Positions 18,364-38,147 of a stretch of DNA of 51,413 nt are shown here, piece by piece. The stretch comes from Deltaproteobacteria bacterium (GTDB lineage: Bacteria > Desulfobacterota > Dissulfuribacteria > Dissulfuribacterales > QOAL01), in the NCBI GenBank assembly GCA_026992735.1, contig JALWYO010000077.1, forward strand, positions 1-51,413. Reading direction: 5' to 3'. Numbering within the stretch: the stretch's first letter is position 1; each line of letters begins with the position of its first letter. Under the pieces are notes generated by a model. The model was given only the letters and a program-made list of their open reading frames with translations. It ran no database searches and was not told the origin of the DNA. The translations under genes and the position numbers were made by a program.

Positions 18364-18437
18364 TTAACCCGGATTATGCAGCTCGCAAGTTTGCCAAAGA
18401 TGCGAGGCAAAGGTCATAGTGCATAATCCGGGATTAA
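18364..18437. repeat. Palindromic element with nested, possibly pseudoknotted arms at the end of fdhA
   Basis: The outer arms CCCGGATTATGCA (18368-18380) and TGCATAATCCGGG (18420-18432) are perfectly complementary over 13 bases. TTAA on each side extends the stem past one bulged A. The loop holds two interleaved pairings: CTCGCA (18382-18387) with TGCGAG (18401-18406), and TTTGCC (18390-18395) with GGCAAA (18406-18411). The order of the arms is that of an H-type pseudoknot, and the two pairings share one base. The fdhA stop codon (18434-18436) lies in the outer arm, so the element can protect or end the fdhA transcript. The layout suggests a dispersed repeat family. Confidence 0.6.
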
Positions 18438-21400
18438 TGTCCCCTGTCAATGGCACGGATACGCACTGCACATACCTTGTATTCGGGGGTCAGGGTCTTG
18501 TTATCCATGCCGTGACTTGTGAGAACATTGGTAAGATCATCCTGGAAATGAAACGTCATAAACACGGTACCAGGCTTGCTCCTTTCCGTAACAGTGGCCA
18601 CAGCCTTTATGCTACCCCTGCGTGACTCTATCCTTACGGTATTGCCATCTGCAATACCAAGGACCCTGGCGTCATCAGGATGGATTTCCAGCAGTTCCGT
18701 CCCTGCGATCTGATCAAACCCTTGGCACCTTCTGGTCATGGAGCCGTTATTGTAATGCTCCAGTCTCCTGCCGGTAATCAGCACCAAAGGATAATCCTTG
18801 TCTGCCTCTTCCTCGGGCACGATATATGAGACCGGCACAAAAGAGGCCCTTCCCCTGGGGAAGCGCTTGGTGTGAAGCAACGGTGTACCAGGATCCTGTT
18901 TTGAGCTACATGGCCAGACCTTGCCATCCTCACCCAGCCCCTGATATGTGATTCCCCCGTAAGAAGGAGTCAGGGCAGCTACCTCGGTCATTATCTGTTC
19001 CGGGCTGGTGTATATCATCGGATAGCCCATTGCCTGTGAAATAAGACAGATAATCTCCCAATCAGCCTTGGTGCTGCGCCTGGGAGGTATCACCTTGTTG
19101 ACTTTTCTTACACGCCGTTCGCCACTGGTAAAAGTGCCTTCTTTTTCATAAAAACATGCTGACGGAAGCACCACATGAGCGAGTTTTGCCGTCTCTGTCA
19201 TGAACATATCCTGCACCACTACAAAATCCATGGCCTTCATGGCCTTGCGGACATGTTCTATGTTGGACTGGGTATGGGCAGGATCATATCCTACGCAGTA
19301 AAGGGCCTTGAAGCTGCCATCCAGGGCAGCATCGTACATCTGCGGCTCCATAAGCCCCTTGGTCTTTGGAAGCGCCTTTACACCCCAGGCCCTGGCAAAA
19401 CGCTCCAAGACCTTCTGATCATCAGTATCCTGATAACCAGGATAGATATACGGCAAGGTGCCCATATCACAAGAACCCTGGACATTGTTCTGCCCCCTGA
19501 GAGGATTGATGCCATTGTTGGGCCTGCCAACGTGACCAGTAGCAAGTACCAGATTTGCAAGGGCAATAACACCGGCAGTACCGCCTTTGTGTTCTGTCAC
19601 CCCAAGGCCGTACAGAATCATAGAGTTCGCAGAAGTAGCATACAGCCTGGCAGCCTTCCGTATCAGTTCCGGCTTCACATCAGTGAGCTCAGCCATCCTC
19701 TCGGGAGAATAATCCTTGCAATGTTCCAGGATAGCATCAAATTTCTCTGTGCGTTCCTCAATGAATTTTTCATCCAGAAGGCCTTCCTCGATAATGGTAT
19801 GAAGCATGGCATTCAGCAGCGGGATATTACTGCCAGGCCGGACTCTCAGCCATATACCAGAGGACTGCTCATCTGCAATTACTGCCAGGTCGGTCCTTCT
19901 TGGGTCAATGACAATAAGCCTTGCCCCTCGCTTGACAGCTTCCCTGATCTTCAGGCCGATTATGGGATGTGCCTCAGTGGTATTTGCCCCGCATATAAGG
20001 AGACAATCTGCACCAATTATCTGCTCAAAAGGAGTTGTTGCTGCGCCGCTTCCCAGTGTTGCCAGCAGACCGCTGACAGATGGAGCGTGTCAGACCCGGG
20101 CACAATTGTCCACGTTGTTCGTGCCCCATGCGGCTCTCGCAAGCTTCTGAAGAAGGTAATTCTCCTCGTTTGTGCAGCGGGATGATGCAAGCACGCCCAT
20201 GCTGTCCGGGCCAAACTTGTCTCTTATGGCAAGAAACTTCTCGGCAGTTATTCTCAGGGCCTCATCCCATTCCACCTCTCTGAAAGGCTCTTCTACACTG
20301 TAACGGACAAGTGGGAGCCGAAGTCTCTCATGGTTTCTGTAAAATGAATAGCCAAACCGTCCCTTTACACACAGGTGACCAAAATTGGGAGGCCTGTCAG
20401 GATCTGCCTTCACCTCAAGGATAGCGCCATACATGTGAACTACGTCAATACTGCAGCCTGTACCGCAATAGGTGCATACTGTCTTCACTGACGACAATTG
20501 CGCAGGCAGAAGCGGCACCACGCTGTCCTGCTTTGACAGCGTACCTGTCGGGCATACATCCACGCAGGCACCGCAAGAGACGCAGTTCTGGTTTATCTTT
20601 ATGGAAACATCGTCAATAAGGCCGGTCTTCTGATCAAGAGTGAGATCCAACTCAAAAGCATCGTACTTGCAGCTTCTCACACACCTTGTGCAGCCTATGC
20701 ACTTGTTGGCATCCACCACGATAAATGGATGAGACTTGTCAACCTGGTACTTTAGCCTTGTCCTGGCCTTATTGGCCTTGACCTTGTAATCAACACACAT
20801 CTCACGATAACTGCATTTGGACAGGCCAAGGCATCCGCACTGAAGACAGCGCTTGGCCTCCCGCACGGCCATCTCCTCGGAAAATCCAAGCTGGACCTCG
20901 CCGAAATCCCCTGTCCTTCTCTCAGCAGGCCTGGCTGGCATGACCTCGTTAAGCTGAAGCTCATAGCCCTCAAAGTTGTGCATATCCACGTCTTCAAATC
21001 TCTTGCCCTTGGTGAAGTTGAAGCGTGGCTCAAGCACGGAAGGCCTTTCCTTTGTGAGATATTCGTGTATGGATTCTGCGGCCCTCCTGCCGCCTGCCAC
21101 AGCCTGTATAACCGTTCTTGAGCCAGTGGCTGCATCACCCCCTGCGTATATTCCATCCACGCTGGTCTTCATGGTGCTTGGATGGGCCTTTATGGTATTG
21201 CGAGGTGTAAGCGCTATAGATGCCTCAAGTTCGCCATAGCTGTGAAACGTGGGATCTCCTTCCTGGCCAAGGGCTGAAATAACAGTATCCCCGGTCCAGA
21301 AAAGCCTGGACCCAGGCATGGGAATCGGGCGCCTTATGCCGCGCTCATCAGGCTCGCCGAGTATGGTACGGGCCATCTCCACCTTGAGTTGCCCGTCTTC

Positions 21401-22564
21401 CTTCATAATCTTCAGAGGTGTGGCCATGAGAAAGAACTGCACGCCTTCCTTTTCCGCCTCTTCTATCTCCCTCTGATGCGCAGGAAGCTCTACCCTGGAC
21501 CTTGGATAGATAACCGTAACATTCTTTGCGCCCAGCCGCCTGGCGCTCCTGGCAGAATCCACAGCTATGTCACCGCCGCCGACAATAAGCACCTGGTCTC
21601 CAATCTCTGGCTTTGCCCCCATGTTTACTTCCCTGAGGAAATTAAGGCCGCACCTGGCGATTCCCGCACCTTCTAACTCGAGCTGTTTCTGCCGGGACAG
21701 GCCGGTAGCAATAAAAATGGCGTCAAATCCCTGGTCTCTAAGGGTCTGCAGGGTAAAATCCGTCCCCCATCTCTTTCCAAGCCTGGCATGTACGCCAAGG
21801 TTGAGGATGCCCTGGACCTCCCTGTCAACTTCCCGGTTTGGCAGCTTGTAGCCCGGGATGCCGTATCTCATTAGGCCACCGAGCTTGTCCTCTGCCTCGA
21901 AAATGGTAACCTGATGACCCTGTTTTCTCAAAAAATAGGCACAGGAAAGACCAGCAGGGCCACCACCAATGATAGCTACCTTTTTACCGGTAGGCTTGCC
22001 TACCTCTGTATCCCTGAACCTTGCCTCACGGGCATGATCTGCCACAAATCTCTTTAGATGGTTGATAGCAATAGGCTCATCCAGCAAAATACGCCTGCAC
22101 CTGGTCTCGCAAAACCTTGGGCATACCCTGCCTACTGCAATGGGGAGGGGATTCTTTTCCTTTATGAGCATCAGGGCTGCGAGATACTCCCCTTTTGCTA
22201 TAAGGTTCACATAACCCTGGACGTTTATGCCTCCGGGACATGTGAGGTTGCATGGAGCTCGGCAGTCCCCGTAGTGACTCTCTGCCAATACCTCCAGTCG
22301 CTCCTTTCGGAAGGCATCCAGGTCTCTATTGTGGACCTCTATAACTTGGCCATCTCCTGCAGGAGTAGCACAGGCCCTGACCCTGCCAAGACCCTCTATC
22401 TCTACCATGCACAGGAGACAGGGATTGGAAGATGCTTCCTCACCCTTGATATGACAGATGGTTGGAATTTTTATGCCCGCCGCTGCCGCTGCTTCAAGGA
22501 TGGTCTGACCCTTGACCGCAGCCACCTGTTTGCCGTCAATGGTTATATGAATAAGTTCAGCCAT
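18434..22564 (-). CDS. fdhA: Selenocysteine formate dehydrogenase with NuoG-like and GltD-like N-terminal domains
   Basis: A 1376-residue protein read through one TGA (20090-20092, Sec825) in NNVDNCARV-Sec-HAPSV, the classic active-site context. Both halves are in the same frame, and the codons after the TGA give normal FDH sequence. Domains: [2Fe-2S] ferredoxin with Cys37, 49, 52, 65; a cysteine-rich segment (residues 99-155); a GltD-like FAD/NAD(P) domain (VAIIGGGPAGLSCAYFLRKQ; VLIVGGGDIAVDSARSARRL), about 190-520; two [4Fe-4S] clusters (CIGCTRCVRSC, CVSCGACVDVC); then the molybdopterin/tungstopterin domain from CTYCGTGCSID onward. It should interconvert CO2 and formate using NAD(P)H and possibly ferredoxin through its own flavin and clusters; the electron partner is inferred. 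A terminator separates it from acsE, so it has its own transcription. ATG 22564 has GAGG 4 bases upstream. Confidence 0.93.
20060..20078 (-). promoter_or_regulatory. SECIS hairpin of fdhA
   Basis: In the mRNA, TGTCAGC - GGTCT - GCTGGCA forms a 7-pair stem (one G-U) with a 5-base loop, starting 11 bases after the UGA at 20090-20092. Loop sequence and spacing closely match the SelB-binding upper stem-loop of E. coli fdhF (loop GGUCU). This supports insertion of selenocysteine rather than termination. Confidence 0.85.
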
Positions 22565-22742: not shown

Positions 22743-23633
22743 TTAAAGTTCCAGCCAGGATTCGGAAAAGATGGTCTTGCCCATAAGCACCCTGGTAGTC
22801 TTGTAATATTCCAGCTCCTTGTCTGAAAGAGAAGATGGATCCGGATCATTGTCGTCCATTATATCATGAACCAATTTCAGCAGTTCCGGCCTTTCCCCGT
22901 GGGCCAACTCTATGAGCTCGTGGTCATATGTGTCCACAATGGCCGACCAGACACCGTGTTTCATGAGCATTGCAAGAAAGGCACGGTTGAGATATGGCCG
23001 AAGCTTCGTATCCACGCCATTCGATACATTGGAAAGACCCACAGTACTCTTGGCACCGGGAGCGATGTCAGGCAGCATTGACATGAATTCCAGCCCGCTC
23101 ATCACCTGGTCTGAACCCAGGGTAATTGGAGTGGCTATCGGGTCCACGAGTATCTTCTCATTGGGTATGCCTGCCTCGTTCATGGCCATTAAAAGGTCTA
23201 TGGTCATGGCTGCCCTTTCATTGGAATCCCTCGGCATGCCGTCCACTCCCCAGAGAAGCCCAACCACAAAACATCCTGCCTCTGCTGCAACAGGAATGAG
23301 CTTTTTCATCCTCTCAGGCTGGAGAGAAATGGAATTCATGATATGACGTTCCGGATGAGCAGCCGCCTTCATACCTGCTATCAAGGCATCCGCATTTGTG
23401 GTGTCAAGAGAGAGCGGACAATCTGTCACATCTTCCACCACGCTGACGATCCAGGGCATGAGATCCGGCCCGTCTTTTCTGGCAGGGCCGATATTCAGAT
23501 CCAGGAAGTCTCCTCCATCTGCCACTTCCTCATGCGCCATTTCCACGATAGGTCTGGGGTCCCTGGCCCTCATGGCACTTCCTGTGCGGTTCCCCATGAT
23601 ATTTATGCTTTCAGCTATACATTGAACATACAT
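22743..23633 (-). CDS. acsE: Methyl-THF:corrinoid iron-sulfur protein methyltransferase
   Basis: A 296-residue pterin-binding TIM-barrel enzyme that moves the methyl group of methyl-tetrahydrofolate to the cobalt of AcsC/AcsD. Its pterin-binding features are INIMGNRTG near residue 12, the DLNIGPARKDGPDLM segment near 47-61, PLSLDTTNADALIAGM, and the KSTVGLSNVSNGV segment. I chose ATG 23633, with GAGG 8 bases upstream. A TTG six codons earlier is possible. It is the last gene before the terminator, 42 bases after acsC. Confidence 0.94.
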   Translation of the reverse strand: MYVQCIAESINIMGNRTGSAMRARDPRPIVEMAHEEVADGGDFLDLNIGPARKDGPDLMPWIVSVVEDVTDCPLSLDTTNADALIAGMKAAAHPERHIMNSISLQPERMKKLIPVAAEAGCFVVGLLWGVDGMPRDSNERAAMTIDLLMAMNEAGIPNEKILVDPIATPITLGSDQVMSGLEFMSMLPDIAPGAKSTVGLSNVSNGVDTKLRPYLNRAFLAMLMKHGVWSAIVDTYDHELIELAHGERPELLKLVHDIMDDNDPDPSSLSDKELEYYKTTRVLMGKTIFSESWLEL

Positions 23634-23675
23634 GGCAATTTCCTCGCTCAAATTACTACTGGCTTCAGGCCAGAC

Positions 23676-25031
23676 CTAATCTTCCGGGCTCCATTTTTTC
23701 AAGAATGGAGGCAGATGGCTTGCTTCCCTGGGACCTATCTGTATCTTCCAATCAGGCAGCTCCTCCTCCAGCTCGCCCTTGATAGAGGCAAGATAACCGG
23801 GAATGATAATGCTCCTGTGCTTTACCTTGTCCTCTATGCCGCTCTTTTTAACGAACTGGGCAATGAGATCTGCGCTGAACTTCCCGGCAGCCCAGGCCGT
23901 AAGCACTGAAAGGCCTTCGGTATCCTTGATAAGCAGCCATGATGGAACCTTGCTCCCCTCTATCTCACCAGAGACAATGAAATAGGTCAGGGAGAAATTA
24001 CACGTCACCAGCACTGGAGAATTCTCATCAGGGCCATTGATGGGATATATATCCTCCTGGACAACCATTGGACGCTGTGGATCCGTAAAGATATTCAGGC
24101 GCTCCAGGAGAAGCGGGAAAAGCAAATCCCCCTGCAGATCGGACAGAACCATGATGCCTGCATACTTGGCCACAAGAATAGAAGCAACAACCGTTTCCAT
24201 GAACGGATCATCGGTCATCTCGCAGGGGAATGTAATAGTAGGAAATCCCAGGGGTTTGTACTTGTGTTTTATGGCCGCGCGTCTGCATACAATCTGGTCT
24301 TCAAAAAGGCTCTTCATTGTGCGGGCACCGGTATCCAGGACAAGGTCCTTGAACCCGTCGGCCTGGAGCTTTTCGGAAAGTTTTGCAGTCCCGCCAATAT
24401 TTTCACCACGCACTGCCAGGGGACAACCTGTATCCTTTGCAACCTCAGCAACAGCATCAGCATTGGATTCAGTGGCAGCATAGAGAAGCGGCACGTGTTC
24501 CCCGCAGGCCTCGGCCCCTGCCTTCAATACATCAGCGGCTTCGCTCATGAGTATAAGGGCGGCATCAGGACACTTGGAACGTGCCTTTTCAACCAGGGCG
24601 GTAAATGCTCCTGCATCACCAGAGCTGTCCTTTATGGCCAGGAGGTCTGCCTTGAGCTCGACACCCACCCTGTCATAACGAAGTGCCAGAAAACGGTCCA
24701 TCCTGCCGTCTATATCACCGTCATCCATGTCAGTGGTGAGTAGTACAGCTATACCTGTTGGATGCTCAAACCTCTTTTCATGCCTGGAAAGGCAGGTCTC
24801 GCCACCGAAAACAAACTTATTCTCCCCGCTTCCAAGGGTGATTGTCCGGATTGGAGGTGCACTGGCCTCGCTGACTGTTTCCTTGACCTCGTCAGAGACA
24901 TAAGGGCAAGCATCAATTTCAACCTGGCCTGCTGCCACCTTCATGGCAAATGCCAGACACGTAGGTACTCCACACTCCCCGCAATTCTTCTTGGGGAGCA
25001 TTTTCAGGATCTCTATTCCAGTAAGCGCCAT
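23676..25031 (-). CDS. acsC: Corrinoid iron-sulfur protein, large subunit
   Basis: A 451-residue subunit (CdhE/AcsC) that carries the corrinoid and an N-terminal [4Fe-4S] cluster in NCGECGVPTCLAFAMK (Cys17, 20, 25, and Cys42 in DACPY). This cluster reactivates oxidised cobalt. A TIM-barrel domain follows (FGGETCLSRHEKRFEHPTG; AIKDSSGDAGAF), then a C-terminal corrinoid-binding Rossmann-like domain (SYWxxSGEIEGSKVPSWLL-type region near 370-400; RSIIIPGYLASIKGELEEEL). It accepts methyl from AcsE and passes it to AcsB. Its usual partner, AcsD, is fused to MetF in this genome (27343-30558). Confidence 0.95.
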   Translation of the reverse strand: MALTGIEILKMLPKKNCGECGVPTCLAFAMKVAAGQVEIDACPYVSDEVKETVSEASAPPIRTITLGSGENKFVFGGETCLSRHEKRFEHPTGIAVLLTTDMDDGDIDGRMDRFLALRYDRVGVELKADLLAIKDSSGDAGAFTALVEKARSKCPDAALILMSEAADVLKAGAEACGEHVPLLYAATESNADAVAEVAKDTGCPLAVRGENIGGTAKLSEKLQADGFKDLVLDTGARTMKSLFEDQIVCRRAAIKHKYKPLGFPTITFPCEMTDDPFMETVVASILVAKYAGIMVLSDLQGDLLFPLLLERLNIFTDPQRPMVVQEDIYPINGPDENSPVLVTCNFSLTYFIVSGEIEGSKVPSWLLIKDTEGLSVLTAWAAGKFSADLIAQFVKKSGIEDKVKHRSIIIPGYLASIKGELEEELPDWKIQIGPREASHLPPFLKKWSPED

Positions 25032-25046
25032 GATCCTAAGCTCCTC

Positions 25047-27254
25047 TTAAACTACGCTTTCCATAGAAAGTGCAGGATGATTCTTTTCCTGCAGATATTT
25101 CAACACCTCATCTTCGGCGATGCCTACCTCTTCATCTGCTATGAGGTCAAGAAGATCAGGCACTCCTTCCTCCTTTGCCCTCTCTTCCAGGCGATCCCTG
25201 AGTTCCTCTTTAAGCATCTTGGGCATCCATACTACCCTCTTGAGCCCGCCTTCGGCCTGCATGAACTTCCTGGAGCATATGTAGTGCTTGGACACTCCAA
25301 GAAATCCCGGGGTGACCTGCCCGCCTCCAACCATGCCTGCCAAGGTGGTAAACTTCATCCCGCTGGGGGTCATGCCCATATAATCACGGTTGACTATCAT
25401 TATGCCGTTACACATGGGAAGCATGGTGGCAATGCACTCAAAACAGCCGCAGGCAGTCATTGGGTCAACCATGAGTGAATAGGCGCTGACCTGCTGCACC
25501 TTGCCCCTGGACGCCTTTTTTACGAACTCGTTTATTCCTTCCCACTGGCCCAGCTTTGGATCAAGACACTTACCCTTTTCTATGGGCTGGTTCGGGCCGG
25601 TTGGGTTTATCTCATATGATGCCTTTCCATCCAGCCAGTTGTATGCGCCGCACATGCCGATACGTTCGGGTGTGATTACGCATACGTGGCTCGGAGCAAA
25701 AGACTGGCAAAGGGTGCAGGAATAGAAAATCTCCTCGCTCTCGTCTGTCATGGAACCAAGACGCCTGTCCCTTTCTGCATAGACCTCCTTGGCAAGCTCG
25801 AGGACTTCCTTGACCTTGTCTTCCACTGTGTAGATCTTGACCTGAACTTTATCCAGGATGGCACCAAAATCCTGGTGGAGCTTTCCATGAAGTATCCTGC
25901 CGATATGCTCGAACTTGAAGCCCTTTTCTATGGCTGCCTTCCCAACCCTGAGCCACATGATGTTTCTCTGGCCAATGTGCATTATACCCTGGGCATAATT
26001 AATGAGATGATGAAACTGGCGTTCAAGTATCGGCTCAAAGTCAGGCTGCATCTGCCTGCCTGCGACTTCAACCAGAATGGCCAGAGGCAGCTTGTCGCCT
26101 TCCTTGCAGTCTGTCATCTCAGGGCCTTCTACAATAACCTTGCCGTCTTCCACCTCGTCCATGTCCTTGGAAACCAGGACTTCTACACCAAGGGTCCTTC
26201 CGCCGCCGCATTCGAGATAGAGATCATCTTTCCTGATACGCTCGCCCTCAAAAGCTGGGCCGTAGGAGACAGGAATGTCTATTTTGGTAACGCTGACCTT
26301 AAGCCCCCTGACCTCGATGGCCTTCTGGACGATCTCGTCATGAGGGACCTTGCTCACCACATGCTCGTAGGTGCAGATACCAGTTGGGAGCACTTCCGGG
26401 ATATCCCAGTCGGAAATGGTGGGGAAACCCCAGTTTATGGCACCGGCGGCATTGGCATACCATTCATCCGAGACCGGGCCGAATGCAATGACAAATGCAA
26501 AAGTACGATCCTTATTATAGATAAGATTGCCCTTGTAGTCTCCAGGCTTTATGCCTCCAAATGCCAAGGCCACGCGACAGGCAAAACCTATTGAAAAGAT
26601 AGTAGAAGTATATGTAGGGCCAAATGGTACAAGCCTGGTGGACCAGCCTATCTGCACTTTCCTCTTCAGGAGCTGATCTGGAAAATATATGCCGTCGGTC
26701 TGGTCATGCAAAAATACATAGAGGTTCTTCTCCTGAAGCTCAATGGCTATCTTTTCCGCCTCCTCTGAACTGGCAGGAGAACCAAGGATAGCAGCAAAGC
26801 CCGGAGCCGTGCCGTCCACGAACTCAACGCCTCTCTTCCTGAAGATGATATCGTCTGCAGCTCCCAACCAGTAGTTTCCACTGGATGGTGGATCTTCGGT
26901 CTTGGTATAGTACTGCGGTTCTTCTATATATCTTATTGCCTCGAACATCTCCTCTGCAAAATAGGTGGCCATGCCTGCATCCAATGCAGGTGCCAGATAG
27001 GGAAGCCAGAGGTCATCTGTAACCGGCGGAGGCAGCAGCTTCCTGCATTCCTGAAAGATCTCCTTCATGTCTCCGAGCTGCTTAACCGGTGCCCCGAGCA
27101 TGCTGTATATGATAGGCAGATAATAGGCCGTGTTGGGAAAAGCTATTTCCTGCTCAGGTCCGTACTTTTTCAGGGCCTCTTCAAACTTTTCCTCGGCCAT
27201 ATCCACTATCTTGTGAGCGCCTCGGATGGCTGCAGAACAGATTATCTTGGACAT
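25047..27254 (-). CDS. acsB: Acetyl-CoA synthase (ACS catalytic subunit)
   Basis: A 735-residue bacterial-type ACS that joins CO, a methyl group and CoA. The A-cluster ligands are intact: Cys513, 516, 525 and 535 (SCTLCQSFAPSHVCV ... GMCGAYNW) for the [4Fe-4S] cube, and the Cys602-Gly603-Cys604 motif in TACGCFECI for the distal nickel. The spacing parallels the Moorella enzyme. The N-terminal domain (residues 1-310) that contacts CODH is present, unlike the shorter archaeal protein. It precedes acsC by 15 bases. Confidence 0.97.
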   Translation of the reverse strand: MSKIICSAAIRGAHKIVDMAEEKFEEALKKYGPEQEIAFPNTAYYLPIIYSMLGAPVKQLGDMKEIFQECRKLLPPPVTDDLWLPYLAPALDAGMATYFAEEMFEAIRYIEEPQYYTKTEDPPSSGNYWLGAADDIIFRKRGVEFVDGTAPGFAAILGSPASSEEAEKIAIELQEKNLYVFLHDQTDGIYFPDQLLKRKVQIGWSTRLVPFGPTYTSTIFSIGFACRVALAFGGIKPGDYKGNLIYNKDRTFAFVIAFGPVSDEWYANAAGAINWGFPTISDWDIPEVLPTGICTYEHVVSKVPHDEIVQKAIEVRGLKVSVTKIDIPVSYGPAFEGERIRKDDLYLECGGGRTLGVEVLVSKDMDEVEDGKVIVEGPEMTDCKEGDKLPLAILVEVAGRQMQPDFEPILERQFHHLINYAQGIMHIGQRNIMWLRVGKAAIEKGFKFEHIGRILHGKLHQDFGAILDKVQVKIYTVEDKVKEVLELAKEVYAERDRRLGSMTDESEEIFYSCTLCQSFAPSHVCVITPERIGMCGAYNWLDGKASYEINPTGPNQPIEKGKCLDPKLGQWEGINEFVKKASRGKVQQVSAYSLMVDPMTACGCFECIATMLPMCNGIMIVNRDYMGMTPSGMKFTTLAGMVGGGQVTPGFLGVSKHYICSRKFMQAEGGLKRVVWMPKMLKEELRDRLEERAKEEGVPDLLDLIADEEVGIAEDEVLKYLQEKNHPALSMESVV

Positions 27255-27342: not shown

Positions 27343-30300
27343 TCAAAGCATGCCTTCCACAAGGGCATCGGCAAGGGCAGCAGCCTTGGGATGCCTCATG
27401 ACCATGAGTTCCCCGCCTGCAAGCAGGAGGGCAGAGGCAGTTATAGCCTCCATAAGCACCCCTCTTCTCTCCTGGTCACCCAACATGCCGTCAGACGGGA
27501 GTCTCGTCTCCTTGGCCTTCCAGACCTCCCGACCCAGGTTTACGATAAACGGGCATGAAAGCTTGTCATCCTGCTGGGTAAGGGCAGCCAGCCTGATCCT
27601 CTCCATTACTGAATAGGTGTATTCCAGCCCGTAACCAACAGCGCCGATGGAAGGATCCATAAGGATGTGATCCAGATGGACACCAAGGTTCTCCAGCAGG
27701 ATATTCAGCTGTTTCGCAAGATTTACATCAATAGGCGTAGAGGCTACCACCGGATACTGGAATGCCATTGCTGTAGCGCCAAGAGTCCTGTAATTGGCAT
27801 CGCTAAGCGGGCCCAGGCAGACTTTCTTGTCACCAATCCTGCCAGTGACCTCCCTGAGTGTCTCGGTGTCCTTTTCTGCATTACCGCAACCCCACAGGAT
27901 TATGGGGACATCTACTGCCTCTACAACCCTCTCAGCCACTTCAGCAGCCTCGGCCGGTGAAGCATCTGCACCATTTGGATCAGTGCTGACCAGAGACAGG
28001 CAGATTGATTTCGCATTGTACTGTTCCACGCACTTCCTGGCCCATTCCGCAGGATCTGAGAGGCAGTCTGAAAAATATTTCGTCAGAACATCAGGCCATT
28101 CCTCAGGCTCTGAATCCAGTACCTCGAATGCCACCCTTGGTGGATTAGGCATGTCGCCTTCAAAATTGTAAAAGGGAAGGGCAGTTTCCCCACCTACTGA
28201 AAAGGCATTTTCTCCATCACCCAGCATTACGCTTTGTATCATCCCTGAACAGGACTCCATGTAGACGTCTTCCGGTATGTCTCCCGCCCTTTCGGAAAGC
28301 GGGGGCTCATCCTTGGCAAGTGGCGTAACGGACAGATCCGAGACCCCCTCGCCGGCTGGCGCCGATATCTCAACCTTTGGAGCCTTGGGCTCTGGTGCAG
28401 GTTTCTCCTTCTTTTCTTCCTCTGCCGCCTTCTCAGGCTTCGCTGGCTTTTCCTCAGCAGGAGCAGCCTCTGCCTCTTCTTCCTTCTCTTCCTCTTCCTC
28501 TTCTGCAGGGGCTGCAGCAGGCTCAGGTGTCTTTTCCTCTTCAACAGAAGGGGCACCGGCTGCTTCGGGAATACGAATTCCCTCCTTGTTTTTGGCCCTG
28601 TTCAGGCCGTCCTTTGCCTTCCCATTCTCAGGATCAAGGGACAAGGCCTTTTCAAATTCAACAACGGCCTTTTCATAGTCGCCATTCATCATGGCAACGT
28701 TGCCCCTTGCAGTGTAACGGATTATCCACTTTTCCTTCCACCAGGTTTCATCCACGCCTTCGGGACAAGGCGGCAAAAGGCCTTCCGATTCCTCTGATTC
28801 TGATGGTTGAACTGCAGAAATCGCCTTCTCAAGGGCAGCCTTGGCCTCGGCAAGACCGGCCTTCGCCTTTGCATCTTCCGGATCGATACCAAGTGCCTGC
28901 TCAAAGGCCTCGATGGCACCATTGTAGTCACCACTGTGAAGCGCCAGGTTGCCTTTTGCAACCAGGTTTACAACCTCTTTATTCCTGGCTGGCTTCTCTG
29001 GCTTGACAGGCTCTTCCACCAGGGCCTCTGCTTCCGGCGGGGCCGGTGCAGCTTCTGGTACAGGCCCTGCCGGTTGAGGCTCAGCAGGCCCAGGAGCAGG
29101 CGGGGCCGGTGCAGATGGTGTCACAGGGACTGGCGCCTGGCCAAACTGCAACATGAATTCCGCTTCAAGGAATCTTCTAAGGGCCTCAAACTGCGTATCA
29201 TCAAGCCCCAGGACCGTCTTCAATGCCTCGAGACCAAGATTCAGTGACTCCAGCACCCGCTGCTCCCTGCCTGTAAGTGGACCTGCCGGCCCAGGAACAG
29301 GTGGAGCTGCAGGGGGTTGCGGTTCAGGAACAGGCGCTGATGGTGCTGCTGCCTGTTTTGCTTCAAGTTCCTTCTTTGCCATCTCTATTTCTGCTGTAAG
29401 TTTCTGGACTTCGGCCTCTTTGCGGCTTGCCATAGTCCTTGCCTCCTCTACCTGTTTCTTGAGATCTGAAATCTCAGAGGCTATCTTTTCCTTTTCCTTG
29501 ATCACTAGCTCACGGGAAGCTTGGGCCTCTGTTTTTGCCCTTTCCAGTTCTTCCTCCAGCTCTATTCTAATCTCTTTTCTGGCATCCTCCACAGCCTTTT
29601 CAATGGACTGGGAACTTGACAACACTGGTTCGATGCCCTTTGGGTCAGGCCTGTTGGAAAGCCCTGCCCTCTTGACTATCTCAGGCACAGCCTCTTCCCA
29701 CTCGATTGCCATCACATGTACACCGGCCACCCCGGGAATATCCTGCACCTGCTTTATGATATCGACGCAGATATTGATGCCCTCTTCCCGCTGATCAGAA
29801 GCATCGGAAAGCCTGGACAGCACGTCATCAGTCACATCCAGGCCAGGCACGAACTTCTTCATGTATCTTGCCATGCCCAGGGACTTTGGCGGGGTTACCC
29901 CGGCGAGTATATAGCATTTTTCATGAACGCCCAGATCCCGTACCATCTCCATGAACCTGGCAAATTTTTCCACGTTGTAGATGATCTGGGTCTGCACAAA
30001 ATCTGCACCTGCAGACACCTTCTTTGCCAGCCTTACAGGCCTGAACTCAAAAGGATCTGCAAACGGATTGGCGGCACAGCCCAAAAAGAGCCTTGGCTCA
30101 TTGCCTTTTATCTCCTCACCACACTGAAATGCCCTATCGTCCCGCATGCCCCGGACCATCTGAAGAAGCTGTATGGAATCCATGTCAAAGACGCCCTTTG
30201 ACTGGGGATGATTGCCGAATTTCTGATGGTCACCGGTCAGGCATAGAAGATTTTTTATGCCGAGGGCCGCGGCCCCCAGGATATCTGCCTGCATGCCGAT

Positions 30301-30558
30301 CCTGTTCCTGTCCCGGCAGGTCATCTGCATTACAGGTTCGACACCCTCCGCTAATGCTGCCAGCCCCGCTGTGAGACTGGACATCCTGACAATGGCTGTC
30401 TGGCAGTCTGTTATATTGACTGCATCCACATGGCCCTTAAGAATCCTGGCCTTTTTTCTAACCAGCCCCAGGTCACCGCTCTTTGGCGGCCCCAGTTCCC
30501 CTGTGACCGCAAAGGCACCTGAGCGCAATACATTTTCTAGATTGCTTCCTGCTTTCAC
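27343..30558 (-). CDS. metF-acsD: MetF-coiled coil-TPR-AcsD fusion (methylene-THF reductase joined to corrinoid protein small subunit)
   Basis: One uninterrupted 1071-residue frame. Residues 1-305 are a MetF TIM barrel (AVTGELGPPKSGDL; LLCLTGDH; DFVQTQIIYNVEKFARF; ILAGVTPPKS). Residues 315-403 are a charged coiled coil. Pro/Ala linkers flank a small helical unit (430-475). Two TPR-like repeats lie at 527-575 and 612-657 (GNLALHSGDYNGAIEAFEQAL; GNVAMMNGDYEKAVVEFEKAL). An acidic Glu/Lys/Pro linker spans 660-765. Residues 766-1071 are AcsD, the CFeSP small subunit (FSVGGETALPFYNFEGDMPNPP; ILMDPSIGAVGYGLEYTYSV). The protein would make methyl-THF and also be part of the corrinoid methyl acceptor. 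It starts in an ATGA overlap with metV, and acsB follows after 88 bases. No other metF or acsD is in the window. Confidence 0.92.
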   Translation of the reverse strand: MKAGSNLENVLRSGAFAVTGELGPPKSGDLGLVRKKARILKGHVDAVNITDCQTAIVRMSSLTAGLAALAEGVEPVMQMTCRDRNRIGMQADILGAAALGIKNLLCLTGDHQKFGNHPQSKGVFDMDSIQLLQMVRGMRDDRAFQCGEEIKGNEPRLFLGCAANPFADPFEFRPVRLAKKVSAGADFVQTQIIYNVEKFARFMEMVRDLGVHEKCYILAGVTPPKSLGMARYMKKFVPGLDVTDDVLSRLSDASDQREEGINICVDIIKQVQDIPGVAGVHVMAIEWEEAVPEIVKRAGLSNRPDPKGIEPVLSSSQSIEKAVEDARKEIRIELEEELERAKTEAQASRELVIKEKEKIASEISDLKKQVEEARTMASRKEAEVQKLTAEIEMAKKELEAKQAAAPSAPVPEPQPPAAPPVPGPAGPLTGREQRVLESLNLGLEALKTVLGLDDTQFEALRRFLEAEFMLQFGQAPVPVTPSAPAPPAPGPAEPQPAGPVPEAAPAPPEAEALVEEPVKPEKPARNKEVVNLVAKGNLALHSGDYNGAIEAFEQALGIDPEDAKAKAGLAEAKAALEKAISAVQPSESEESEGLLPPCPEGVDETWWKEKWIIRYTARGNVAMMNGDYEKAVVEFEKALSLDPENGKAKDGLNRAKNKEGIRIPEAAGAPSVEEEKTPEPAAAPAEEEEEEKEEEAEAAPAEEKPAKPEKAAEEEKKEKPAPEPKAPKVEISAPAGEGVSDLSVTPLAKDEPPLSERAGDIPEDVYMESCSGMIQSVMLGDGENAFSVGGETALPFYNFEGDMPNPPRVAFEVLDSEPEEWPDVLTKYFSDCLSDPAEWARKCVEQYNAKSICLSLVSTDPNGADASPAEAAEVAERVVEAVDVPIILWGCGNAEKDTETLREVTGRIGDKKVCLGPLSDANYRTLGATAMAFQYPVVASTPIDVNLAKQLNILLENLGVHLDHILMDPSIGAVGYGLEYTYSVMERIRLAALTQQDDKLSCPFIVNLGREVWKAKETRLPSDGMLGDQERRGVLMEAITASALLLAGGELMVMRHPKAAALADALVEGML

Positions 30559-31223
30559 GGCAGCAAGTCCTCCCTGATTCTGCGACGCGGGCCGCCATGG
30601 CCTGCAGAGGTCCAGTCGCGAATTGGCATTATATTCTTCATCTCATCCGATCTGTTCAGCCCTGAAAGTTTGTCATATATCTGCTGCCAGATGCATGCAA
30701 CATCCGGATGGATCTCGCAACGTCCACCCTGAGAACCCCCGCACGGGCCATTGGAAAGGCTCTTGGCGCACCTTGCAACAGGGCAAAGCCCGCCGGTCAG
30801 ATGAAGCACGCATGCCCCACAGCCTGCGCACATTTCTTTCCACTCTCCACTGGACAGGTTGGCCCCGTAGAATGTGGTATCAAGGGCAGGCAACACGTTT
30901 ACCTTGTCGCAACGGTCTGCTATGAAATTCACACCTACTCCGCATGCCATGGAGAGCACTGCATCAAAATCTGCTGCATCCTGGTTGAGCGGGTCAATAT
31001 ATTCAGGATCGCACTGCCTGACTAATGTACGCTGCTCGATGTCTATTTTCTTGCCCCGCCTGGTAAGTCCGAGCTTCAGAGCTGATGCAAGGATTGCAAC
31101 CTCCTTGTCCCCACCTGCAGAACAGACCGCCACGCAACCCCTGCATCCAAGGATAAGAACACGGCTGCACCCATCTATCATTCCCAGAAGTTCTTTTAAT
31201 GTCTTTCTTTCAGCGATTATCAT
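30555..31223 (-). CDS. metV: MetV, iron-sulfur/zinc partner of methylene-THF reductase
   Basis: A 222-residue cysteine-rich protein of the MTHFR C-terminal family. The N-terminal half is a Rossmann-like domain with GCRGCVAVCSAGG near residues 28-40. The C-terminal half has CAGCGACVLHLTGGLCPVARCAKSLSNGPCGG-type ligands near 130-165, in order Cys-x2-Cys-x2-Cys, Cys, Cys, Cys. In acetogens MetV partners MetF and links it to Hdr-type electron carriers. The ATGA overlap with the metF-acsD gene indicates coupled synthesis. Confidence 0.9.
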   Translation of the reverse strand: MIIAERKTLKELLGMIDGCSRVLILGCRGCVAVCSAGGDKEVAILASALKLGLTRRGKKIDIEQRTLVRQCDPEYIDPLNQDAADFDAVLSMACGVGVNFIADRCDKVNVLPALDTTFYGANLSSGEWKEMCAGCGACVLHLTGGLCPVARCAKSLSNGPCGGSQGGRCEIHPDVACIWQQIYDKLSGLNRSDEMKNIMPIRDWTSAGHGGPRRRIREDLLP

Positions 31224-31285: not shown

Positions 31286-31666
31286 CTAACCAGGCTGATC
31301 CTGCTCTGAAACCCTGGCAGCCATGAGTCTTGCAGCCTCCACAACAGGCTCTGTCTCGCCCCTTCCTGCATAAAACATCTCCACCAAAGCAGGATCCATA
31401 TCCAGCTCTTCAAGGATCTTTCTGGCCTGGCCCACTCTTTTGGAGGCCCTCCTGCTGCCTGAGAGGTTATGACATTTGTCAAGTTGACAGCCAACCACAA
31501 AGACGGCTTCAGCTCCCTCGGAAAAGGAATCGAGTATTTCCGGCACTTCCAGCCTGCCAGTGCACGGCAGCCTTTCAATCTCAACGTCTTCAGGAATAAG
31601 GCCTTCACTCCTCAATGCCTCAGGCTCCACACTCAGGGTATAATTGCAACAAAATCCCTTGATCAT
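31286..31666 (-). CDS. Short MvhD-like iron-sulfur protein
   Basis: A 126-residue protein related to the hydrogenase/Hdr delta subunit MvhD, but shorter and with all cysteines. VVGCQLDKCHNLSGSRRASKR (near residues 57-77) corresponds to [14 protein letters not shown] of the larger MvhD encoded at 32244-33044. The N-terminal FCxWC motif is reduced to GFCCNYT, followed by RLPCTGRLE in place of the VMCTGRID segment. It starts in an ATGA overlap with the hdrC-like gene. It probably passes electrons between the Hdr proteins and MetV (inference from position). An overlapping frame at 31228-31608 is not used. Confidence 0.82.
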   Translation of the reverse strand: MIKGFCCNYTLSVEPEALRSEGLIPEDVEIERLPCTGRLEVPEILDSFSEGAEAVFVVGCQLDKCHNLSGSRRASKRVGQARKILEELDMDPALVEMFYAGRGETEPVVEAARLMAARVSEQDQPG

Positions 31667-32214
31667 TTCAAAGCCCCCCTTGCTTCAGGTGACGGAGCAA
31701 GCTCTATGGCCTCTGCAGGACATTCCAGCACGCATATGCCACAGGCCCTGCACAGTTCCGGCTCTATGACCGCATAGCCCTCATCTGCGATTTTCGGTGC
31801 GCCAAAAGGGCAAAGCCTAACGCAAGTAAGGCATGCCACGCATTTCCCTCCATCCACAACTGCAAACTGCCCCAGGTGTTCCAGGCGTTCTGGATCCACT
31901 GATTTCCTCTTGACCGCTTCGTCCCGGAGGGCCTTTATCACGTCTGCACAGCGGACATCTTGAGGACATACCGGTATGCAACTCTGGCATTGGGAACATG
32001 CCCAGATGACATCCCCGTTTATCAGTGCCTCTTCCATCCCCAGGGCCACCATATGCACTATCTTGCGTGGGTCGAATTCATCGACCACCTTTTCCACAGG
32101 GCAGACGCCACTGCAGGAACCACAGCCATAGCAGAGGCTTACTGTCTCGCAGCCCTGGTAGGGAAATATCTCCTCCAGGAATTCCGGATTTAATCTTGAT
32201 GCCTGTAGAGTCAT
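31663..32214 (-). CDS. HdrC-like protein with two extra [4Fe-4S] clusters
   Basis: A 183-residue electron carrier. The N-terminal part is HdrC-type: CYGCGSCSGVCP (Cys28-38) and CSQCQSCIPVCP provide two [4Fe-4S] sites. The C-terminal 60 residues add a 2[4Fe-4S] ferredoxin (CVACLTCVRLCPFGAP and CRACGICVLECPAEA). The extra ferredoxin is not part of ordinary HdrC and may replace the missing HdrB as the exit for electrons. It lies 29 bases after mvhD and overlaps the next gene by 4 bases. Confidence 0.88.
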   Translation of the reverse strand: MTLQASRLNPEFLEEIFPYQGCETVSLCYGCGSCSGVCPVEKVVDEFDPRKIVHMVALGMEEALINGDVIWACSQCQSCIPVCPQDVRCADVIKALRDEAVKRKSVDPERLEHLGQFAVVDGGKCVACLTCVRLCPFGAPKIADEGYAVIEPELCRACGICVLECPAEAIELAPSPEARGALK

Positions 32215-32243: not shown

Positions 32244-33044
32244 TCAGGAAGAAAGAGAAAAACTGTCTTTTTTCCGTGAAATCTGCCCTTTCTTCAACAT
32301 GGGGGCCAATATCTTTTCCAGTTCTTCTGCAGATGCACCTGTATCGCTGCAAAGCTTTTTGAGATCCGCAGGGCCTTCTTCCAAGATCATTCCAACCTCA
32401 GTAGCTATCCTCACCGACCTCATGGCAGGAAACACCTTTGCCTTCACACCCTTGGAAATAGCATCTCTGGAATAATCTCCTTCCTTTGCCATCTTCTTCG
32501 CAAGCTTTCCTAAAAGAGTGCGGGGCTTCCTGGCACCAGCGGCCTTAACGGCTGCCTTGAGCCTGCGGCCAACAACATCTGCAGGGATCTCGTCTGGGCC
32601 TGACCCCAACGGCCCCTTTTCCCTGATCCTGGACACATAGCCGGTTATGAGCTCTACGAACCTTGGAGCCTCTGCAGCAGATGCCCACTCCAGAGCCAGC
32701 CTTTCCCGGTCAACTCCACAGTCTTCCAGGAGCTGTCTTGCCGCCTCCGTTACTATCATAGCCTCGTAATTACCAGACTGGTAATGACATTCACCAAGGT
32801 GTCAGCCACCTGTAAACACACCATCAGCACCACACCGGAATGCCTCGATGACAAATCTGGCATCGATTCGGCCGGTGCACATCACCCTTATAACCCTGAC
32901 GTTGGGCGGATATTGATACCTGGAAACGCCTGCCGAGTCAGCTGCTGCATAACAGCACCAGTGGCAGAAAAAGCCCAGTATCTTGGGATCAAAACCCTCT
33001 TGGGTCATTTCATTCTCCTTTGTTACTGCGTTTTCCTTTGCCAT
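32244..33044 (-). CDS. mvhD: Selenocysteine MvhD (Hdr/hydrogenase delta subunit)
   Basis: A 266-residue protein when the TGA at 32802-32804 is read as Sec81. The frame reads GADGVFTGG[17 protein letters not shown], exactly where MvhD/VhuD proteins have Cys or Sec, and continues in frame to 32244. Residues 24-140 are the [2Fe-2S] MvhD domain ([27 protein letters not shown]). The last 120 residues are a basic helical extension ending in a winged-helix-like segment. MvhD hands electrons to HdrA. ATG 33044 has GAGGGG upstream, within the end of hdrA. ATG 33008, with AAAGGAG 6 bases before it, gives a more family-like N-terminus (Sec69) and may be the true start. Confidence 0.9.
32769..32785 (-). 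promoter_or_regulatory. SECIS hairpin of mvhD
   Basis: In the mRNA, ATTACC - AGTCT - GGTAAT forms a perfect 6-pair stem with a 5-base loop, starting 16 bases after the UGA (32802-32804). The loop differs from the fdhA loop (GGTCT) only in its first base. Spacing is longer than in fdhA, but the hairpin and family alignment together support selenocysteine. Confidence 0.7.
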
Positions 33045-33050
33045 ACCGTA

Positions 33051-36000
33051 CTACCCCTCGTCACACTGCCGGCCGGAAAAGGCATGGATCTGAGCCATAA
33101 TGGCCTGGTCTGTAAAACCGCCCATGCTTATTGCTATGGTCGGACAATGGGATGCACAGATACCGCAACCCTTGCAGGAGGCTGTTATGGTCTGGGCCTT
33201 CTTCCTCTTGCCCACCTTGGAAAGCCTGATGGCATTGAACGGGCAGAGGCTCTCACATATGCCGCAGCCGATACAGGCATCCTGGTCAACATGAGATACG
33301 ATAGGAGCAACTGCGACCTTGCCCTTTGCAAGTGGTATGGTTGCCTTTGCTGCAGCAGCTTTTGCCTGGGCCACTGACTCCTCCAGGCTCTTGGGACCAT
33401 GCGCCAGGCCGCACAGATAAACTCCATCAACTGCAATCTCCACCGGCCTGAGCTTTGCGTGGGCCTCCAGAAAAAAACCTTCAGGAGTAAGGGGTGCCTT
33501 TAGAATCTTCGAAAGCTCCTGATTGTCTCCAGGCGCAATGCCTGCTGAAAGCACGACAAGATTGGCAGGTATCTCTATTTCCTCGCCGAGGAGCCTGTCA
33601 AAGGCCCTTACCTTGATCCCCCTCGCCTGCTTGATGACCTGCGGCTTTTTGTCAGTGCTGTATCTCAGGAAGATGACACCTTTTTCCCTGGCCTCCCGGT
33701 ACGCATCCTCATGGAAGCCGTATGTCCTCATGTCTCTGTAAAGGATATATATCCTGCAGTCAGGTTTGAGCTCCTTAAGCTTAAGGGCATTCTTCACCGC
33801 CTGGGTGCAGCACAACCTGCTGCAATGGCTCATATCATCGCCCCTAGAGCCCACGCACTGGATCATGACTATATTGCGGGCATTCTTCAGGAAGCTCTTT
33901 CCCCTTGCAAGCTTTTCTTCCAGTTCCAGCTGGGTGACTATCCTCGTGCTTTCGCCATAGGCATAAGATCTGGGTTTGTATTCCCTGGCTCCTGTGGCAA
34001 TAACGGTTACTCCGTGGTTGATGAGCCTGTTCTTCTTTCCCTGGCTTACAGTACTGGTAAAATTGCCCACGTAACCTGAAATAGCCTCAACGGTGGAGCC
34101 TGTAAGCACCTCTATTCCCGGGTGAGATTCCACGCTGGAAATCATATCTTCCATGACCTTCCTGGCGTCCTGGCCGTCCGTGGTCCACTGAAGCCGTCTC
34201 AGGTTTCCACCAAGATGCCTGGATTTTTCCACGATAGTCACGCTGTAACCCTGGTCTGCAATGGAAAGCGCTGCCGACATGCCGGCAGCCCCGCCACCAA
34301 GAACAAGGGCGCCCGGGGTCACGTCCACGGTGGGCTGTTCAAGAGGCGTAAGCAACCTGGCCTTGGCCGCTGCCATTCTCACCAGATCTTTGGCCTTTTC
34401 TGTTGCTGCCTCAGGCTCCTGTGCATGTACCCAGGCACATTGGTCACGAATATTTGCCATCTCCACCAACGCAGGATTCAGGCCTACAGAACGAAGAGTC
34501 TCCTGAAACAGGGGTTCATGGGTCCTTGGCGAACAGGCGGCAATAACTACCCGGTTCAGATTATTGTCTCTTATCTTCTCGGCTATACCTTTGAGTGCAT
34601 CCTGGGAACAGGAATATAGAGGATCTTCATAAAGCACCACCCCTGGAAGGCTTGCCGCATAATCGCGCACTGCCTTGACATCTACTACACCGGCAATATT
34701 CACGCCGCAGTGACAGACAAAGATGCCGATTCTCGGCTCCTGTTCCTCAAGGGCCTTGTTTTCTTCCGGATAGGTAATGCTTACTGTCTGGGAATTTCTT
34801 GCCTCTGCAAGAAGCTCAGAGGCAATGGCAGCGACACCCGATGCCTGGGTAACGCTCTCTGGAATATCCTTGGGCCCCTGGAAGGCCCCTGCTACGAATA
34901 CACCGTCCCTGGAGGTAGAGAGGGGAGAATCAACCCTGGTGCTGCAGAAATTATAGTTATTGAGTTTAATATCGGCTATCTTGGAAAGAGCCTCGGCATC
35001 CTCGGGAGACTCAAGCCCCACAGACAGGACAACCATGTCGAAGATACCGGAATGATGCTTCCCGTCATCCGTGGTCCAGGTAAGAGCAAGCCTGCCATCC
35101 ACCTGGTCCACCCTGGGCACCCTGGCCCTTATCACATTTATGCCGTACTTTTCCTGGGCGCGTTTCCTGGCATCGTCAAAGCCCTTGCCCTGCGTTCGGA
35201 CATCCATGAAAAATATGGACACGTCGAGGTCCGGCTCGTGCTCCTTGGCAACAGACGCCTCCTTGATAGCATACATGCAGCAGACCGAAGAGCAGTAACC
35301 GTTGCCGCACGTCTCGTCCCTGGAACCTATGCACTGGAGAAACGCAATTTTTCTCGGAGGCCTGTTGTCAGACGGCCTGACTATGTGTCCTTCAGTTGGG
35401 CCTGATGCACATGTGAGACGCTCGAATTCAAAGGCTGTCAACACGTCTGGATATTTACCGTAACCAAATTTTTCCAGCACGGAACTATCCACCCTGCCAA
35501 AACCAGGGGTGAGCACAACAGCACCTACTTCCAGCTCCAGGTTCTTGGGTTTCTGGCTGAAATCTATGGCCCCTGCAGTACAGGTCTGGGCACACAGATT
35601 ACACGTCTCGAAATTCACCCTGAGACATGCCTTTGCATCTATGTAATAACTGGATGGAATTGCCTGGGCATAATCGATATGCGGCGCCCTGGTAATCTCA
35701 AGCCTTTCGTTGTATGCATCAACCACGGGCCTGGGACAATACATGGTACACATGCCGCAGGCAGTACACAGATCTTCGTTTATATACCTGGGCTCCTGGA
35801 ATACCCTGGCCTTGAACTGCCCTGGTTTGCCCTCAAGCCCCTCCAGCCTGGCATTGGTAAGGATTTCTATGTTTGGAGACCGACCGGCCTCTACCAGCTT
35901 TGGCGCCAGGATTCACAACGCGCAATCATTGGTGGGAAAGGTCTTGTCGAGCTGGGCCATGACCCCGCCTATGGAGGCCTTCTTTTCCACTATGTAAACA

Positions 36001-36152: not shown

Positions 36153-38147
36153 CTAATGGCCGCCTGGAGAGCACCCCATTCCAGGGATACTGGAACCAAG
36201 CTCCCGGCGCATGGCCATGTCGAACAGCACGCGCTCTTTCTTCTTGTCCAGGCCAAGGGCCTGCCTTCTCGCATCGATCTTGTCGATCATCTTGTTGGCA
36301 AACTCGTTGGCTGTTACAGCAAGATCCCATGAGCCGCCATATATCTCATTCATCTCGTTGAAACAGAAATCTGTCACTTTCTTCGAGCCCGTTGTGGGGA
36401 AACTCGGGCCAAATACTACATATGCACCACTTGAGACAAAATACTGCCCGATGGACACGGCCTTCTCACTCATCCACTGTGGAGCGCAGCCCACAACCGG
36501 AATCTCGCTTATATCACTGCCGAGCCCACCCGTATGAACCATCTCGGTAGCTGCAATCAAGAGCCTGCTATTGTCCACGCAAGAACCCATGTGAAGGACA
36601 GGTGGACAGCCCACGGCCTCTAACACCTCTTTAAGGCCATCGCCTGCCATTTCCTTGGCCTCTGGAGAAAGAAGCCCGGCACGGCCCATGCCTGTTGCAG
36701 CGCAGCCGGTGACAAGAACCAATACATTGTTTGCTATGAGTTCCTTGGCCAGTTCAACGTGAACCTCGTCCATGACCCTGAAATTGTCACAGCCAACGAT
36801 GGCGGCAACCCCCCTGATCCTGCCGTTGACAATATTGTCGTTCAGGGGTTTGTAGGAAGCCCTGAAACGGCCTCCCAGGATATAGTTTATGGTCTCGTGA
36901 CTGAAACCAGCCACCACATCCATTTCATGAACAGGGATAAAATGCTTGCCTCTTTCAGGAAACTTGGCAATAGCGCGCTTGAGGATGTCCTTTGCCACGT
37001 CCATGGCATTGTGTTCCTCAAACGGGATATGAGTGGCACCTGTTATCTTGGCCTTGTCAGAAGTAGTAAAAAGAGAAGTATGGTAATTGCTGGACACCGG
37101 CGAGACGCCCTGCATAATGCACTGAACATCAACCACCATGGCCTCTACCGCACCGGTTGCCAGGACTACTTCCTGCTGGACAAAGCTTCCTGCAATTGGG
37201 AGCCCTCTTCTCATGAGGATTTCATTGCCAGTACAGCATACGCCTGCCAGGTTGACCCCCTTGGCGCCCACTTTCTTGCATTCTGCCACTATTTCTGGAT
37301 CATTGGCAGCCATGGCCAGGGCCTCGGCAAGAACAGGCTCATGCCCGTGAACCGTGACGTTTACCTCTTTCTCTTTAAGAACACCGATATTTACCTTGCT
37401 CCGTATGGGAACCGGGGTGCCGAACATGATGTCTGAAAGCTCGGTAGCTATCATGGATGCACCCCACCCATCTGCAAGGGCACAGCGGGCAGCATGCTGC
37501 AGGATATGTTCGTAGTGCTGGTCCACACCCATGTGGGTCCGGTGCATCATTTCCACCACTTCCCTGTCAACACCTCTGGGGGCAACACCCTGCTTTTCCC
37601 ACAGCTCCTGCCTGGGTGCAGGTGCCCTTTTGATAAAAGATAGCACTCCTTCCTGCTGGCCGAATTCTGCCACCATCTTTTCTCCCACTTCGATGGCAAG
37701 ATCGGTCTTCGACTTCTCTCCAGGATCTATACCTATGCGAAGCGCAGTTTCCCTGAGCTTCATGCCGTCTTTTATTTCGTAAGGGGTCTCACCCTTTGCG
37801 GTTGCCAGAAATGCCAGGGCAACACCACGGCCGTGATCCATGTGGGCAGCAGCGCCACCTGCGACTATCCTGGCAAAATTCCTTGCTGCCACAGTAGCGG
37901 CATCAGCCCCGCATACTCCCTTCATGGAATCGACGCCTTCAATTATCTGGCATGGACCCATGTTGCAGTTTCTGCAACAGGTGCCGCCCTTTCCAAAGAG
38001 ACAGGGCTCTATGCTCCTGTCCTGGACCCTGTGGGCAGCGGTTATAACTCCTTCAGAGCATGAATTGCACAGGACTTCCCGGTTTGCCTCACACTGGATG
38101 CCGGGACATCCGCCATTGCCCTTATCAAATCTCTTGCTGGTATCCAT
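36153..38147 (-). CDS. acsA: Carbon monoxide dehydrogenase catalytic subunit
   Basis: A 664-residue Ni-Fe-S CO dehydrogenase (AcsA/CooS) that interconverts CO2 and CO for AcsB. N-terminal cysteines, including CLFGKGGTCCRNCNMGPC (Cys49-66), bind the B- and D-clusters. C-cluster features follow: GVCCTGNEILMRRG near residue 300, GCDNFRVMDEVHVELA, VTGCAATGMGRAGLLS, and HMGSCVDNSRLL. The length and ending fit the bacterial CODH/ACS type. It lies 16 bases after folD and 66 before hdrA. No cooC/acsF nickel-insertion gene is in this window. Confidence 0.96.
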   Translation of the reverse strand: MDTSKRFDKGNGGCPGIQCEANREVLCNSCSEGVITAAHRVQDRSIEPCLFGKGGTCCRNCNMGPCQIIEGVDSMKGVCGADAATVAARNFARIVAGGAAAHMDHGRGVALAFLATAKGETPYEIKDGMKLRETALRIGIDPGEKSKTDLAIEVGEKMVAEFGQQEGVLSFIKRAPAPRQELWEKQGVAPRGVDREVVEMMHRTHMGVDQHYEHILQHAARCALADGWGASMIATELSDIMFGTPVPIRSKVNIGVLKEKEVNVTVHGHEPVLAEALAMAANDPEIVAECKKVGAKGVNLAGVCCTGNEILMRRGLPIAGSFVQQEVVLATGAVEAMVVDVQCIMQGVSPVSSNYHTSLFTTSDKAKITGATHIPFEEHNAMDVAKDILKRAIAKFPERGKHFIPVHEMDVVAGFSHETINYILGGRFRASYKPLNDNIVNGRIRGVAAIVGCDNFRVMDEVHVELAKELIANNVLVLVTGCAATGMGRAGLLSPEAKEMAGDGLKEVLEAVGCPPVLHMGSCVDNSRLLIAATEMVHTGGLGSDISEIPVVGCAPQWMSEKAVSIGQYFVSSGAYVVFGPSFPTTGSKKVTDFCFNEMNEIYGGSWDLAVTANEFANKMIDKIDARRQALGLDKKKERVLFDMAMRRELGSSIPGMGCSPGGH

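Follow-up and report, generated by a model that had tools for sequence, protein, structure and literature searches.

Methylene-THF reductase (MTHFR, MetF) and AcsD, the small subunit of the corrinoid protein CoFeSP, share one reading frame in the 51,413-nucleotide stretch of Deltaproteobacteria DNA analysed here, referred to below as the window. Is this fusion a genuine gene, and what would be gained by joining a producer of methyl-THF to part of the protein that accepts the methyl group? An earlier note on this DNA had proposed a scaffold that holds the Hdr-MetFV reductase and the CODH/ACS complex together.

The MetF-AcsD gene and its neighbourhood

The frame runs from position 30558 to 27343 and comprises 1071 codons with a GTG start. 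The single 1071-residue frame claimed in the note was thus confirmed, though on the minus strand; the plus-strand reading of 27343–30558 contains 21 stops. The protein consists of a MetF barrel, a 460-residue linker and an AcsD domain (Table 1). At the MetF end, Pfam matched the MTHFR family at residues 7–299 (E 3e-38, above cut-off) and Foldseek matched the T. thermophilus MTHFR structure 8eac with TMt of 0.77–0.81. E21, D110 and Q191, which by comparison with E. coli MTHFR we take to be the catalytic Glu, the Asp of the TGD motif and the conserved Gln, are invariant in an alignment of 49 fused homologues, so that both the barrel and the residues by which an MTHFR is recognized were found. 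At the other end, the NCBIfam AcsD model matched residues 765–1070 (E 1e-137) and was the only standard model to pass its cut-off on the fusion protein in that search. Pfam CdhD matched residues 777–1017 (E 6e-42), phmmer returned 4c1n_B/2h9a_B (E 8e-84) and Foldseek returned 2h9a_B (TMt 0.89) and 9fzy_E (TMt 0.88). The C-terminal domain therefore combines the CdhD barrel with the operon position beside acsB and acsC that is expected of AcsD. An AlphaFold2 model of the protein alone, built with the 49 fused homologues, likewise places an MTHFR-like barrel and an AcsD barrel at the two ends, with a long helix, a hairpin and TPR units between them. Both domain identities given in the note were upheld by these searches.

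The GTG start follows the ribosome-binding sequence AGGGAGGA and shares bases with the metV stop (GTGA), an arrangement kept in the near relatives compared. MetV carries the NGPCGG motif, and an adjacent MetV of this kind marks the reductase as MetFV-type. The Hdr-MetFV complex named in the note holds in part: hdrA, hdrC, mvhD and metV are adjacent, and a domain search of the contig found no HdrB (CCG) domain, which leaves the gene set short of the six-subunit Moorella-type MTHFR.

Two further frames in the window deserve description. A 171-residue protein encoded between hdrA and hdrC gave only a weak partial match of the MvhD type (FlpD), and its position is conserved in fused relatives. The frame downstream of acsE is interrupted by a single TGA whose context, NCARV*HAPS, is the expected selenocysteine position of FdhA, and its product is probably a selenoprotein joined to a module that handles NAD(P)H. 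Scans of the window for Rfam families, SECIS included, and for tRNAs gave no matches.

Table 1 Features of the window, with residue numbers of the fusion protein where they apply.
Feature	Position	Strand	Evidence
GltD-like (Fer2, Pyr_redox, Fer4) module and formate dehydrogenase catalytic domain, single frame broken by one TGA	18434..22564	-	
AcsE, methyl-THF:CoFeSP methyltransferase	22743..23651	-	NCBIfam PRK07535 and CODH_ACS_meth matches
AcsC, corrinoid-bearing CoFeSP large subunit	23676..25031	-	NCBIfam PRK04165 over cut-off
AcsB, acetyl-CoA synthase	25047..27254	-	NCBIfam equivalog over cut-off
AcsD (CoFeSP small subunit) domain, residues 766-1071	27346..28263	-	NCBIfam AcsD, phmmer, Foldseek
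TPR unit 2, residues 604-656	28591..28749	-	Pfam TPR; AlphaFold2 pLDDT mostly >90
TPR unit 1, residues 527-583	28810..28980	-	Pfam TPR; AlphaFold2 pLDDT mostly >90
Conserved helix hairpin, residues 428-475, candidate docking or self-association element	29134..29277	-	Homologue comparison, AlphaFold2
Single long helix / coiled-coil segment, residues 316-401	29356..29613	-	AlphaFold2; dN/dS 0.05 to closest relative
MetF (methylene-THF reductase) domain, residues 1-305	29644..30558	-	Pfam PF02219, Foldseek, invariant residues
MetV, partner subunit of MetF; stop overlaps fusion start	30555..31223	-	Pfam PF12225 E 3.5e-35; GTGA overlap
MvhD-like electron transfer subunit	31286..31666	-	NCBIfam VhuD-type match
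HdrC-like Fe-S protein	31663..32214	-	NCBIfam HdrC
171-residue protein	32244..32759	-	Weak partial MvhD-type (FlpD) match
HdrA-like flavoprotein	33051..35753	-	NCBIfam HdrA2 E 3e-250
CODH catalytic subunit	36153..38147	-	NCBIfam TIGR01702 over cut-off
FolD	38164..39051	-	Pfam
Formate-THF ligase	39434..41197	-	Pfam

Distribution and origin of the fusion

Within the window's order the fusion was whole in 33 of 46 genomes and in pieces in 10, and 3 gave no match to it; this tally includes the window's own genome and some incomplete drafts, and the pieces lie on broken contigs, as contig breaks would lead one to expect. It is whole in the single-contig genomes G023, G108, G165, G222 and G231, and the complete single-contig carriers include families other than the window's. 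Most of 80 independently fetched database loci have both domains in one frame. In a phylum-wide sample of 164 genomes with AcsD, 23 carry a MetF-fused AcsD and one a split gene (G139), and the others gave no sign of a MetF fusion; this count rests on frame lengths, some of the loci having been read directly. The fused members belong to the window's order, to families f71 and f82, which named loci and genome sizes lead us to regard as Desulfobulbia-type, and to families f72 and f39, which by the same reasoning are Thermodesulfobacteria-type; cultivated as well as uncultured lineages are represented. The window's genome is a 137-contig draft, and the note had considered that re-sequencing might reveal a stop or frameshift within residues 305–766, but recovery of the same frame from dozens of independent assemblies and from single-contig genomes rules out an assembly or sequencing artefact almost completely. 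The fusion is real, and its architecture is conserved throughout a group of CO2-fixing sulfur bacteria.

Fused and split AcsD form one clade in the AcsD tree (support 100/100), with the split form falling inside f39, and a single branch separates fused from unfused MetF (100/99). The latter tree was left unrooted and without the remote second MetF, because rooting with that outgroup placed the root on the long f39 branches and was uninformative. Both trees indicate that the fusion arose once. In the related family f28 (L165) the genes are unfused in the order metV-metF-acsD-acsB-acsC-acsE, with metF and acsD adjacent, as would be expected of the ancestral state. One f39 species (G139) has separate MetF and AcsD again. 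In the secondary split at L154:5180–7324 (minus strand), metF has its own stop and acsD retains a helical linker remnant of about 100 residues.

Among near relatives dN/dS is about 0.03 in both enzyme domains, 0.05 in the coil and 0.07 in the hairpin, values that are rough because synonymous sites are near saturation; the linker spacers are unconstrained and evolve fast. These ratios indicate strong purifying selection on both enzyme domains, and the fusion is very probably functional.

The note had also raised the possibility that separate metF and acsD genes are the working copies. The window's genome has no second AcsD; apart from the fusion, its MTHFR proteins are a homocysteine methyltransferase-MTHFR (646 residues) and an MTHFR-DUF5981 protein (563 residues). 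No separate MetFV-type MetF was found in the fused genomes examined closely; in the complete genome G108 the fusion is the sole MTHFR of any kind, and most others keep paralogues of the HcyS-MTHFR or MTHFR-DUF5981 type. Two fused genomes have one of the proteins in separate form as well: G280 a 315-residue E. coli-type MetF, and G019 a second, unfused AcsD. In Desulfobulbia-type genomes hdrC-mvhD-metV lies at another locus without a metF of its own and MetF is still on AcsD, so the partner of MetV would need to be the fused MetF, and this protein would then bridge reductase and CoFeSP. Among unfused relatives, L103, L104 and L166 have an additional, divergent MetF close to the main one, often accompanied by a MetV of its own; the additional MetF of L103 is 41% identical to the window MetF.

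The linker

AlphaFold2 predicts the linker as an 86-residue helix (316–401), a helix hairpin (430–450/454–472), a disordered segment (473–526), two three-helix TPR units, and a disordered, acidic stretch (660–745) between the TPRs and the AcsD barrel. Pfam matched TPRs at residues 533–562 and 615–645. The coiled coil (315–403) and the two TPR-like repeats (527–657) of the earlier note are therefore present, with boundaries shifted by a few residues. The docking arm that it assigned to the TPRs is not a general feature: TPRs were found in all loci of the window's order and in one f72 genome, and in no other fused loci. Linker length among fused homologues ranges from about 110 residues (some f39) to the 460 of the window.

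The conserved linker element is instead the hairpin of about 45 residues, absent from the note's description, which is shared between classes by the window's order and the Desulfobulbia-type genomes. Its consensus is ERxxALxSxxxGLxALKKALGLxDDQFEALxxFxEAExxL and it is present in 95 of 102 fused loci, some of which are the same gene fetched twice. A hairpin profile gave one match per genome, to the fusion only, in 17 of 297 genomes, with two more matches marginal. Folded alone by AlphaFold2, it forms two helices with pLDDT of about 90. The f39 and f72 fusions have other helical segments where the hairpin would sit. Pfam and PDB searches returned no convincing relative; PDB matches to TAL repeats added up from many weak repeat matches, of which none was significant by itself in one search, and were treated as pattern similarity.

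A putative tether in the methyl branch

We consider it likely that the fusion covalently tethers two successive machines of the Wood-Ljungdahl methyl branch, so that the MetFV(-Hdr) reductase stays connected to CoFeSP. MetV and AcsC would bind their usual partners: the N-terminal barrel would pair with MetV, and the C-terminal barrel would form CoFeSP with AcsC. Electrons passed through MvhD, HdrC and HdrA would reach MetF-MetV and reduce methylene-THF to methyl-THF, and the methyl group would move via AcsE to CoFeSP and then to AcsB. The linker (long helix, hairpin, disordered spacers and, in the window's order, two TPR units) would hold both heterodimers in one assembly, so that methyl-THF would be released close to AcsE and CoFeSP. 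Such tethering may raise the local methyl-THF concentration and fix stoichiometry, and the hairpin or TPRs may either dock to another protein of the pathway or mediate self-association. The corrinoid of CoFeSP sits on AcsC, not on AcsD. MetF is thus joined to half of the methyl acceptor, as the note had it, specifically to the scaffold half.

Two other fusions involve CoFeSP. AcsC and AcsE form one 801–817-residue frame in two f39 genomes (G139 and G211), and AcsD and CODH form one 1123–1150-residue frame in G140 and G071, with similar linkers rich in Pro, Ala and Lys. These are independent of MetF-AcsD and also link CoFeSP to pathway neighbours; such repeated fusion argues for selection on proximity. 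The AcsC-AcsE fusions at L154:461–2863 (minus strand) and L158:10111–12561 (plus strand), in two Thermodesulfobacteria-type genomes, have a charged linker, and the linker of the AcsD-CODH catalytic subunit fusions at L168:6925–10374 (minus strand) and L170:5315–8683 (plus strand) contains a short segment that looks helical. An extra stretch of about 200 residues occurs in many of the phylum's other AcsD, and in L169 a C-terminal tail is of similar composition.

A stronger version of the tether, compatible with it, is a strict channel in which the hairpin, the TPRs or both dock AcsE and MetV and methyl-THF is handed over unreleased within a defined Hdr-MetFV-AcsE-CoFeSP-CODH/ACS megacomplex. 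The conserved hairpin, the well-folded TPRs predicted in the window's order and the AcsC-AcsE fusion of relatives all fit this idea, which we nevertheless consider unlikely: the TPRs are not conserved, and a largely disordered linker whose length varies from about 110 to 460 residues points to proximity more than to a fixed channel. AcsE has to work between the two domains and is a separate protein in the window. Conversely, the fusion could be neutral or act at the level of expression, a stop having been lost between neighbours, with independent domains, no role for proximity and any benefit confined to equal dosage or co-folding. The adjacency of metF and acsD in f28, the split in G139, where tethering is evidently dispensable, and the disorder and fast evolution of much of the linker are what such a fusion would leave. 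It appears improbable given that the fusion was kept across several families, that the hairpin is conserved between classes, that MetF remained joined to AcsD in genomes with hdrC-mvhD-metV at another locus, and that the other CoFeSP fusions connect pathway partners. Tethering of the methyl-THF reductase to CoFeSP is thus well supported by anatomy, single origin, conservation across families, the lack of a separate MetFV-type MetF in closely examined genomes and the further CoFeSP fusions, and to this extent the scaffold proposed in the earlier note stands, shorn of a general TPR arm. Channelling, like the role of the hairpin, is hypothetical. More tentatively, a lineage of autotrophic sulfur bacteria could run the methyl branch as one covalently organised assembly, in which MetF-AcsD bridges Hdr-linked MetFV and CoFeSP/CODH-ACS with a helix-hairpin docking domain not described before, and which relatives extended by AcsC-AcsE or AcsD-CODH.

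A natural tether bears on whether the methyl branch uses free or handed-over methyl-THF. The fusion also corrects annotation, since genome papers give other loci as MTHFR, omit acsD or call metV absent where the genes exist in the form described here. MTHFR of Dissulfurimicrobium was reported at two loci whose numbers lie far from those of its acs cluster (PMC8780430), and G023, which appears to be that organism, carries the fusion inside its acs cluster. For Ca. Desulfobulbus rimicarensis, metV was reported absent, no acsD was listed and all listed carbon-fixation genes were said to be transcribed (PMC7117923); its genome encodes MetV and the fusion (L076).

The architecture is new and the enzymes are known. 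Paper searches, with preprints and subscription journals outside their coverage, found no published description of a MetF-AcsD fusion, and the five-group MTHFR classification contains no AcsD-fused type (PMC8515935). As in the six-subunit HdrABC-MvhD-MetFV enzyme of Moorella thermoacetica, metV lies directly upstream of metF, hdrA, hdrC and mvhD are in the same cluster and the MetF barrel has the conserved active-site residues; unlike that enzyme, the window MetF is fused to AcsD and the contig has no HdrB. The AcsD end resembles AcsD/CdhD of CoFeSP (PDB 2h9a, 4djd, 9fzy) in its full-length barrel (about 38–44% identity, TMt 0.85–0.89) and its place next to acsB and acsC, but the solved chains are stand-alone proteins of 309–323 residues, whereas here AcsD is the C-terminal third of a 1071-residue protein. 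Fused NfnAB (PMC6405883) and A. woodii RnfC2, a MetV-RnfC protein (PMC8515935), also place partners in one chain; both join electron-transfer subunits of one complex, whereas MetF-AcsD joins enzymes of two successive complexes.
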